Made by a program: the position numbers and the translations under genes | Notes under the pieces: model-generated | Told to the model about the DNA's origin: nothing | Databases searched by the model: none | What the model saw: only the letters and a program-made list of their open reading frames with translations | In this document: positions 39,932 through 42,900 of the stretch, in pieces | How positions within the stretch are numbered: position 1 is the stretch's first letter | Layout of the letters: the number at the start of each line of letters is the position of its first letter | DNA from: Planctomycetia bacterium | GTDB taxonomy: Bacteria; Planctomycetota; Planctomycetia; Pirellulales; S012-138 | NCBI GenBank assembly: GCA_016177915.1 | Contig: JACOUI010000243.1 | Location: 1-48,771 of the forward strand | Direction: 5' to 3' | Length of the DNA stretch: 48,771 bases

Positions 39932-42900
39932 GGTCAAGCTTTCGTCCGTTAGTACCGGTTAGCTGAGCACCTTGCGGCGCTTACACATCCGGCCTATCAA
40001 CCTGGTCGTCTTCCAGGGGACTCTCGGACCCGAAGGTCCAACGAAACCTCATCTTGGAGCAGGCTTCACGCTTATATGCTTTCAGCGTTTATCCTTTCCG
40101 CAGATAGCTATCCAGCCGTGCCGCTAGCGCGACAACTGGTACACCAGAGCTGCGTCCTTCTAAATCCTCTCGTACTAAGGAAGAGGCTCCTCAAGTTTCG
40201 TGCGCCCACAGCAGATAGGGACCGACCTGTCTCGCGACGGTCTGAACCCAGCTCACGTACCGCTTTCATTGGCGAACAGCCAAACCCTTGGGAGCTTCTC
40301 CACCCCCAGGATGCGATGAGCCGACATCGAGGTGCCAAACCGCTCCGCCGCTATGGACGCTCGGGAGCGATAAGCCTGTTATCCCCGGAGTACCTTTTAT
40401 CTGTTGAGCGATGACCCTTCCATACGGGATCACCGGATCACTAAGCCCTGCTTTCGCACCTGTTCGACCTATCGGTCTCACAGTTAAGCACCCTTGTGCC
40501 TTTGCACTCAAGGCCTGATTGCCAACCAGGCTGAGGGTACCTTAGGACTCCTCCGTTACTCTTTTGGAGGAGACCGCCCCAGTCAAACTGCCCAACTGAC
40601 ACTGTCTCCCGCCCGGTTTCACGGGACGGGGTTAGAACTAAAGCATGCTCAGGGTGGTATTTCACATTGCGGCTCTGCGCGAGCTAGCGCCCGCGCCTCG
40701 ATGCCTCCCACCTATGCTACACAGAACATACCACAGCCCAATATCAGCCTACAGTGAAGGTTCACGGGGTCTTTCCGTCTCACTGCGGGAACGTGGCATC
40801 TTCACCACGGCTACAATTTCACCGGGTCACTGGTTGAGACAGTGCTTCAGTCGTTACGCCTTTCATGCAGGTCGGAACTTACCCGACAAGGAACTTCGCT
40901 CAGAGTTGTTACTCCCAGGAAGCCCGGAGGCTGCTGGGGGGCCGGTCATTTCTGCCAGCCTCTGCATGTCGCCATGCAGCTCGGACTGTATCTTCGCTCG
41001 AAAGACGAGCGTTCGGCGTACAGTCTCTGAGGATCCCGTCCAGAGCGACGGTTTCCTGCTGATTACCTGCACCCACGACATTTTCACTGCCTCGACGATT
41101 CGAGGCGAGTAGTGTGGGATACTCAGGCTTTCCAGCAAACAGCCGAATTTGACTAAGGCTAGCTTTCGTTAACCTTAGGACCGTCATAGTTACGGCCGCC
41201 GTTTATTGGGGCTTCGGTCGGCAGCTTCGCCTTGCGGCTGACCGCCTTCCTTAACCTACCAACACCGGGCAGGCGTCAGTCTCTATACCTCCTCTTGCGA
41301 GTTTGCAGAGACCTGTGTTTTTGATAAACAGTCGCTGAAGCCGATTTACTGTGGCCCCCATTAGCTTTGAACATACAGGGGCACCCCTTATCGCGAACTT
41401 ACGGGGTCAAGTTGCAGAGTTCCTTAACCAGTGTTTTCCCGAGCGCCTTAGACTTCTCGTCTCGCCTACCTGTGTCAGTTTTAGTACGGTTGCCAGACCT
41501 CAACCCTAGAAGATTTTCTCGGACGCCAGTTGGGTGACTATCCGAACATAAGCGCGTTTACGCCGGCTTAGAGGCGTGTTGCCGCGGATTTGCCTACGGC
41601 CACCTCACCACCGTCGCAGGGACATTTCTATCCGTCCCCTCACCCTTTTTTGCGCCGTCTCTCCATCGGTCCGCCTGGCAGCGCAGGAATGTTGACCTGC
41701 TGTCCATCGACTACGCCTTTCGGCCTCGTCTTAGGTACCGGCTAACCCTGGGCGGAATTACCTTCCCCAGGAAACCTTAGGCTTTCGGCGAGCAGGATTC
41801 TCACCTGCTTTATCGTTACTCATTCCGGCATAATCACCTGTGCGCCCCAACACCGTTCCTTACGGTACGGCTCGTATCTGGCGCACAGCGCTCTCCTACC
41901 AATCCAATCGCCCGAAGGTTCATGGATTCCACTGCTTCGGCGTCGTGCTTGACTCCCGTTCATTATCGGCGCAGAACTGCTCGACCAGTAAGCTGTTACG
42001 CACTTTTTAAATGGTGGCTGCTTCTAAGCCAACATCCTGGCTGTCTCAGCAATTCTACTTCCTTTGTGACTAAGCACGACTTCGGGGCCTTAGCAGGTGA
42101 TCGGGGTTGTTTCCCTCTCGACCGCGAAGCTTATCCCTCGCGGTCTCACTCCCGAGATAGTCGCCACGGTATTCGGAGTTTGGTTCGGCAGGGTAGTCGG
42201 AGTGACCCCCAAGCCAATTCAGTATCTCTACCCCCGTGACGTAGTTCCTCGAGGCTAGCCCTAAAGCTATTTCGGAGAGTACGAGCTATCTCTGCGTTTG
42301 ATGAGACTTTCACTCCTCCCCACAGCTCATCCCACCGGTTTTCAACCCAGACGGGTTCGGTCCTCCACGCAGTATAACCCGCGCTTCAACCTGGCCATGG
42401 GTAGTTCACGCAGTTTCGCGCCTATTGCCAGCGACCGTGTCGCCCTGTTCAGACTCGGTTTCCCTGTGGCTCCAGCCCTGAGGGCCTTAGCCGCGCCGCT
42501 GACAATAACTCGCCGGATCATTATGCAAAAGGCACGCCGTCACACCTTGCTCGCAAGCGAGCCATAGTGCTCCGACCGCTTGTAGGCACATGGTTTCAGG
42601 TTCAGTATCCTCCCCTAGCAGGGGTTCTTCCCATCTTTCAGTCGCCCTACTGAGTTCGCTATCGGTCGTCAGAGAGTATTTAGCCTTGCGGGATGGTCCC
42701 CGCAGTTTCAGCCGGGGTTTCACGTGACCCGACTTACTCAGGTACCCCTCGGTAGGCGATTCGCCGTCGCGTACGGGACTTTCACCCTCTGTGGTCCACC
42801 TTTCCAAGACGGTTCTGCTAGCGATCGCTTTCCCATGTGAGAGGCCCTACAACCCTTCCAGGGAAAACCCCAGAAGTTTGGGCTGTTCCCGTTTCGCTCG

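Follow-up and report, generated by a model that had tools for sequence, protein, structure and literature searches.

The window analyzed here, a stretch of 48,771 nt of planctomycete DNA (contig JACOUI010000243.1), contains a 23S rRNA gene that is split by an insert of 271 nt. Its presence raises two questions, namely whether the insert is a group I intron that still splices itself out of the rRNA, and how such an intron has come to lie there with no gene for a homing endonuclease. An earlier note, based on reading the sequence, had proposed a compact group I intron at the U1931 site. Our analysis renders it very probable that the insert is a compact and catalytically intact group I intron residing in the only 23S gene detected in its host, that it self-splices, and that it belongs to a mobile lineage, the ORF having probably been lost from this copy.

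The Insert and Its Position in the 23S rRNA Gene

The limits of the insert (40901-41171, minus strand, as are all features of the 23S gene and intron given below) can be taken straight from the sequence. At the 5′ junction, exon sequence ...CGGTCCTAAGGT, ending at 41172, is followed from 41171 by UAACGAAAGCUAGCCUUAG...; at the 3′ junction, ...AACAACUCUG, ending at 40901, is followed by AGCGAAGTTCC, beginning at 40900. The exons once joined read ...GGTCCTAAGGT and then AGCGAAGTTCC..., and the gene around the insert is complete (39930-43121, RF02541, 2633 bits), with a 5′ exon at 41172-43121 that finishes with CUAAGGU and a 3′ exon at 39930-40900 that starts with AGCGAAG. The joined exon sequence aligns with E. 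coli 23S genes in a single ungapped piece, and the insertion can be placed after U1931: the exon junction follows base 1932 in one annotated E. coli 23S copy of 2905 nt, which we take to be U1931 in the standard 2904-nt E. coli numbering. The pseudouridines 1911, 1915 and 1917, which lie upstream of the junction, presumably place it at 1931 as well. The extent of the insert and the U1931 site, as originally proposed, are borne out by the junctions together with the complete 23S match and by the alignment with E. coli, respectively.

The host is a member of the Pirellulales with a draft genome of 6.03 Mb in 387 contigs, 93% complete, in which one 23S gene and one group I intron were detected; a draft of so many contigs may lack a further 23S copy that is free of the intron. 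An RNA gene search of the window found a 5S rRNA gene past the 3′ end of the 23S gene (39728-39835, minus strand) and no 16S gene, the 5.6 kb upstream of the 23S gene (43122-48771) included; a search of the whole draft genome returned no 16S gene either. Some Planctomycetes have unlinked rRNA genes, and this may also be the case in the window's host. (Elsewhere in the window, a very large ORF at 31429-37569 of the minus strand encodes 2046 aa with many TPR repeats, and a tRNA of undefined type with a four-base anticodon, gctg, called by ARAGORN at 17401-17491 of the same strand, is probably spurious).

Catalytic Core and Covariation

The group I identity of the insert withstands a search with the Rfam model Intron_gpI (RF00028), which matches 40962-41204 with 63.3 bits, above its curated cut-off of 50 bits, and is covered in full (model positions 1-253). 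The insert folded together with nine exon bases is considerably more stable than 200 shuffled versions (z = -6.43), and it presents a 7-bp guide with a U.G pair at the splice site, a P3/P7 pseudoknot and a final G, as expected of group I introns.

To evaluate the individual helices we used an alignment of introns from six distant bacterial genomes, namely the window's, another one of the Pirellulales, and one each from Acidobacteria, Sumerlaeota, Bacteroidetes and Chloroflexi. The proposed structure is paired in 87.1% of the cells of this alignment, versus 74.6% after shuffling and 32-41% when slid along the sequences. Two-sided changes affect 39 of the 75 pairs, none of 500 shuffles reaches any of the five measures applied, and the window intron retains the conserved columns of the core. 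Compensatory changes are abundant in P3, P8 and P9.1, while no pair of P9 varies.

The internal guide GCCUUAG (41153-41159) is the exact complement of the exon end at 41172-41178, with which it forms P1 (92% of cells paired in the six genomes), the U.G pair at the splice site being U41172.G41159. A GCU at 41161-41163 is a candidate for P10 with the AGC that opens the 3′ exon (40898-40900), on a reading of the sequence; a GCU likewise lies directly 5′ of a GCCUUAG guide in 27 of 119 extracted inserts. P3 (UUCGGC 41142-41147 with GCCGAA 41012-41017) is 100% paired and shows two-sided changes in five of six pairs, and so is P8 (40995-41011; CGCUCG 41006-41011 with CGAGCG 40995-41000), in which all six pairs are changed on both sides. 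P7 (GACUGUA 41019-41025 with UACAGUC 40984-40990), which makes the pseudoknot with P3 and contains the guanosine site, is 92.9% paired and also has two-sided changes. P5 (GCCUG 41124-41128 with CAGGU 41065-41069) is exactly complementary and agrees with the alignment. These helices, with P1 and P9, had been paired by hand in the earlier note, and all of them turn out to be exact complements, within a structure that covaries in the alignment. Its P4 stands only in part: the pairing UUGCUG/CAGCAG is exact, but the extent of 6 bp clashes with P6 and was abandoned in favor of a 5-bp P4 (UGCUG 41133-41137 with CAGCA 41057-41061), consistent with complementarity and with the covariation alignment. 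With P4 shortened, G41056 is available to P6, whose GG/CC pairing does not vary among the six aligned introns.

Further helices can be added to those previously listed. The P5 extension (41072-41118) consists of P5a (CCCAC 41114-41118 with GUGGG 41072-41076) and P5b (GCCUC 41102-41106 with GAGGC 41089-41093), both exactly complementary and in agreement with the alignment. P6 is extended by P6a (CCGUC/GACGG, with a loop of 6 nt; P6 and P6a together 41031-41056), which is not common to the other aligned introns (31% paired), as expected since the same loop carries a LAGLIDADG ORF in relatives. Beyond P9, P9.1 (40940-40960, within 40914-40960) forms GGCUGG(CA)-GAAA-(UG)aCCGGCC with two-sided changes in seven of eight pairs, and P9.2 (CCCAG 40934-40938 with CUGGG 40914-40918) is weaker and partly supported, with 68% of cells paired. 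The terminal guanosine, or omega-G, is read at 40901, and G is also the commonest final base among the extracted inserts (83 of them). The insert is thus supported as a group I intron by a curated covariance model, by the anatomy of its catalytic core and by covariation.

The stem of P9 (40962-40979; CUGCAUG-GCGA-CAUGCAG, with a GNRA loop) is invariant across the six aligned introns and identical across phyla, while the adjoining P8 and P9.1 vary freely; its exact sequence occurs in 31 of 190 loci, some of which are duplicates. Possibly, this stem is held constant by a protein or tertiary contact.

Distribution and Probable Turnover of L1931 Introns

A DNA pattern scan of 23S genes returned at least 116 contigs with a non-A base after the 1931 site, nearly all of which look like inserts at that position; more than 100 genome contigs carry inserts at L1931. 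These counts are lower bounds, since the pattern barred introns starting with A and misses several Pirellulales introns that start with AG. The contigs belong to Patescibacteria, Chloroflexota, Acidobacteria, Planctomycetota, Chlamydiae, Bacteroidetes and other phyla. Among sampled Pirellulales genomes, the Rfam group I model has matches in 25 of 397, not all of them in 23S genes, and a core model built for genome scans (R1, spanning P3 to P9) has matches in 21 of 397, versus 10 of 392 genomes sampled phylum-wide (the window's own included). An L1931 insert is present in at least 15 of the 397 genomes (G000, G002, G003, G004, G033, G084, G122, G139, G176, G193, G264, G285, G337, G349 and G375 in our numbering), representing at least two intron lineages. 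Several of the relatives at this site are compact, of 300 nt (G033), 327 nt (G176), 244 nt (L086), 278 nt (L023) and 302 nt (L026).

Within the window's own family the site is found in three states: the 23S gene of G001 is uninterrupted, those of G002, G003 and G004 carry different L1931 inserts of 711-766 nt with LAGLIDADG ORFs, and that of the window's genome carries the ORF-less form. Intron-plus and intron-minus alleles, which the earlier note had proposed to look for, are thus both present among close relatives, a pattern consistent with the intron having been gained and lost repeatedly. The tree built from core sequences places the window intron beside the introns of a different family (f15, support 0.87), in which no endonuclease was detected, and apart from those of G002-G004; the window's 23S exons, instead, fall among f1 and f17, beside G122 and the window's own family. 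This mismatch between the intron tree and the 23S exons favors separate acquisitions at L1931 over one inherited intron, with moderate support given a sparse sample.

Introns of the f15 family in G337, G285, G349 and G176 (L130-L133) start with AGAATTTTCTGCCC and do not have the 7-bp GCCUUAG guide, so that far fewer exon bases must take part in their P1. Other Pirellulales 23S genes have introns near positions 1917-1923, 1951 and 2263 (L158 in G089, L162 in G072, L169-L172, and L160 in G139), with apparently two or more introns per 23S gene in G072, G089 and G139. Group I-like matches outside 23S genes were also seen in the order (L119 in G001, L136-L140, L142, L144, L146 and L150); a tRNA search at the non-23S loci returned one tRNA only, a tRNA-Ala near L144.

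Homing Endonuclease in Relatives and Its Absence from the Window Intron

The claim that the window intron encodes no homing endonuclease holds: no ORF resembling one is present, and most of the longest sense frame has no Pfam match. Moreover, neither a LAGLIDADG_1 protein (PF00961) nor a relative of the endonuclease of locus L055 was found in the window's own draft genome, at its 93% completeness. In relatives (L055, L059, L037, L087 and L089), a LAGLIDADG-type ORF of approximately 170-205 aa accompanies a long gap at P6; the ORF of L055 is a LAGLIDADG_1 protein (PF00961, E = 6.7e-21), and the gap at P6 measures 450 nt in this intron versus 25 nt in the window. (Of the sense frames of the window intron, two are nearly free of stops, and GAGNQQE in one of them, which is like the start of the L055 ORF, was considered as an endonuclease remnant and rejected, because these residues arise from translating the conserved ribozyme core).

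The window intron probably derives from a mobile L1931 lineage in which the members with an endonuclease have their LAGLIDADG gene, of the single-motif type, in the P6 loop, and it has probably lost this gene. The previous statement that the intron was either inherited vertically or mobilized in trans appears incomplete in this respect, since the relatives point to a mobile lineage, a gene that was probably lost and a patchy presence off the host 23S tree.

Probable Splicing Mechanism and Alternative Explanations

Most likely, the window intron is an active self-splicing intron. Its guide GCCUUAG would hold the exon end CUAAGGU, placing the U.G pair at the 5′ splice site. P7 would bind an exogenous guanosine, which would then attack this site, and the released 5′ exon would in turn attack after the terminal G, aligned by the candidate P10. 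Ligation of ...GGU to AGC... would restore the ribosomal core in the vicinity of helix 69. With no further 23S gene detected in the genome, survival of the cell should require that the intron be spliced out or, failing that, tolerated. By analogy with the general homing cycle, the ORF would have been lost after homing, and the intron would now be kept by vertical inheritance or by an occasionally borrowed endonuclease.

Many inserts in bacterial 23S genes are intervening sequences, which RNase III excises to leave a fragmented 23S with unligated exons, and in a published survey of CPR bacteria numerous short inserts that are not introns fall at 23S sites known for such sequences (PMC11270868). 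Such sequences are simple stem-loops in variable regions that lack a catalytic core, whereas the window insert combines a guide for the exon and a terminal G with a group I core that is complete and covaries, and is located in a conserved functional region at an established group I site; furthermore, a break at 1931, beside helix 69, would presumably do harm. Excision by RNase III is consequently very improbable. That the insert is a group I intron which no longer splices by itself, depends on helpers or is retained in the mature rRNA has a precedent at the same site, for the Simkania L1931 intron was reported as unspliced, according to the title of a paper cited in the CPR survey (reference 28 in PMC11270868); yet the core helices of the window intron are all intact and exactly complementary and its conserved core columns are kept, and we consider such impairment unlikely, although dependence on a helper protein is conceivable. 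Still more remote is the chance of an assembly chimera in which a foreign intron was joined into the 23S contig. The assembly is a draft of many contigs, but the exons are continuous with a complete 23S that groups with its own family, the junctions are exact and at a known site, the guide matches the exon, and no fewer than 15 of the Pirellulales genomes sampled have an insert at this position.

A different kind of alternative concerns the history of the intron and leaves its splicing the same, namely that it was never linked to an endonuclease and spread by reverse splicing or pure descent. The compact relatives at the same site (G033, G176, L086, L023 and L026) are consistent with this history, as is the finding that the genomes G033, G176, G285, G337 and G349 have no match anywhere to the L055 endonuclease. 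Close relatives in the core tree nevertheless carry LAGLIDADG genes in P6, and the patchy distribution inside one family favors homing, so that we rate an origin free of endonucleases as a minor, although credible, possibility. A self-splicing intron that has lost its ORF remains the preferred interpretation.

On a broader and speculative level, the 23S genes of Pirellulales may form a natural turnover series for a single site, in which the ORF-less form is kept via mobilization in trans by endonucleases of neighboring lineages or by a service to the host, such as slowing the maturation of ribosomes; this idea is improbable as it stands. L1931 has in any case been colonized repeatedly within one order, and the three states inside a single family make the homing cycle (invasion, loss of the endonuclease, loss of the intron) testable on close relatives. 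In practical terms, genes that are split by introns can mislead tools based on 23S sequences, as well as rRNA removal and long-read surveys of rRNA.

Comparison with Known L1931 Introns

Group I introns at L1931 have been published for Thermotoga neapolitana, T. petrophila and T. naphthophila, Simkania negevensis and Synechococcus spp. (PMC1995217), and likewise for CPR bacteria (PMC11270868) and archaea (PMC6125680). Cyanobacteria and organelles are likewise among the published hosts; the site is well known, and the window intron is a new example of a long-published kind. A search of titles and abstract openings, with most subscription journals lying outside it, found no published rRNA intron in Planctomycetota or Pirellulales; as far as the searchable literature goes, the list of bacterial rRNA introns now reaches Planctomycetota.

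The introns of Thermotoga, Simkania and Synechococcus share the site and the catalytic core with the window intron but are 654-700 nt long and code for a LAGLIDADG protein of 143-167 aa with a single motif, whereas the window intron has 271 nt, no ORF and a planctomycete host (PMC1995217). The Synechococcus intron, which has been called IC1-like without P2, resembles the window intron in having no separate P2 (PMC1995217). CPR introns at 23S position 1931 lie at the same site, where many of the inserts are group I (PMC11270868), in a different phylum, and many of those in our scan start with a different P1 and guide. Archaeal introns at LSU/1931, which have been assigned to IB4, share the site and the group I core, several of them measuring approximately 280-400 nt by their coordinates (PMC6125680); they differ in the domain of their hosts.

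Two further likenesses are found among Planctomycetota. The best sequence match is an intron of 300 nt in the Pirellulales contig JALHLM010000032.1 (L056, the insert of G033), with 72% identity over 293 alignment columns; it is equally compact and has the same site and the same guide, but belongs to another family of the order and has a longer P6a and a different P9.2. The intron of 714 nt in the Planctomycetota contig JAJYDU010000051.1 (L055) shares with the window intron the site, the guide, the P5 extension, P9 and P9.1, and differs from it in the LAGLIDADG_1 ORF carried in P6.
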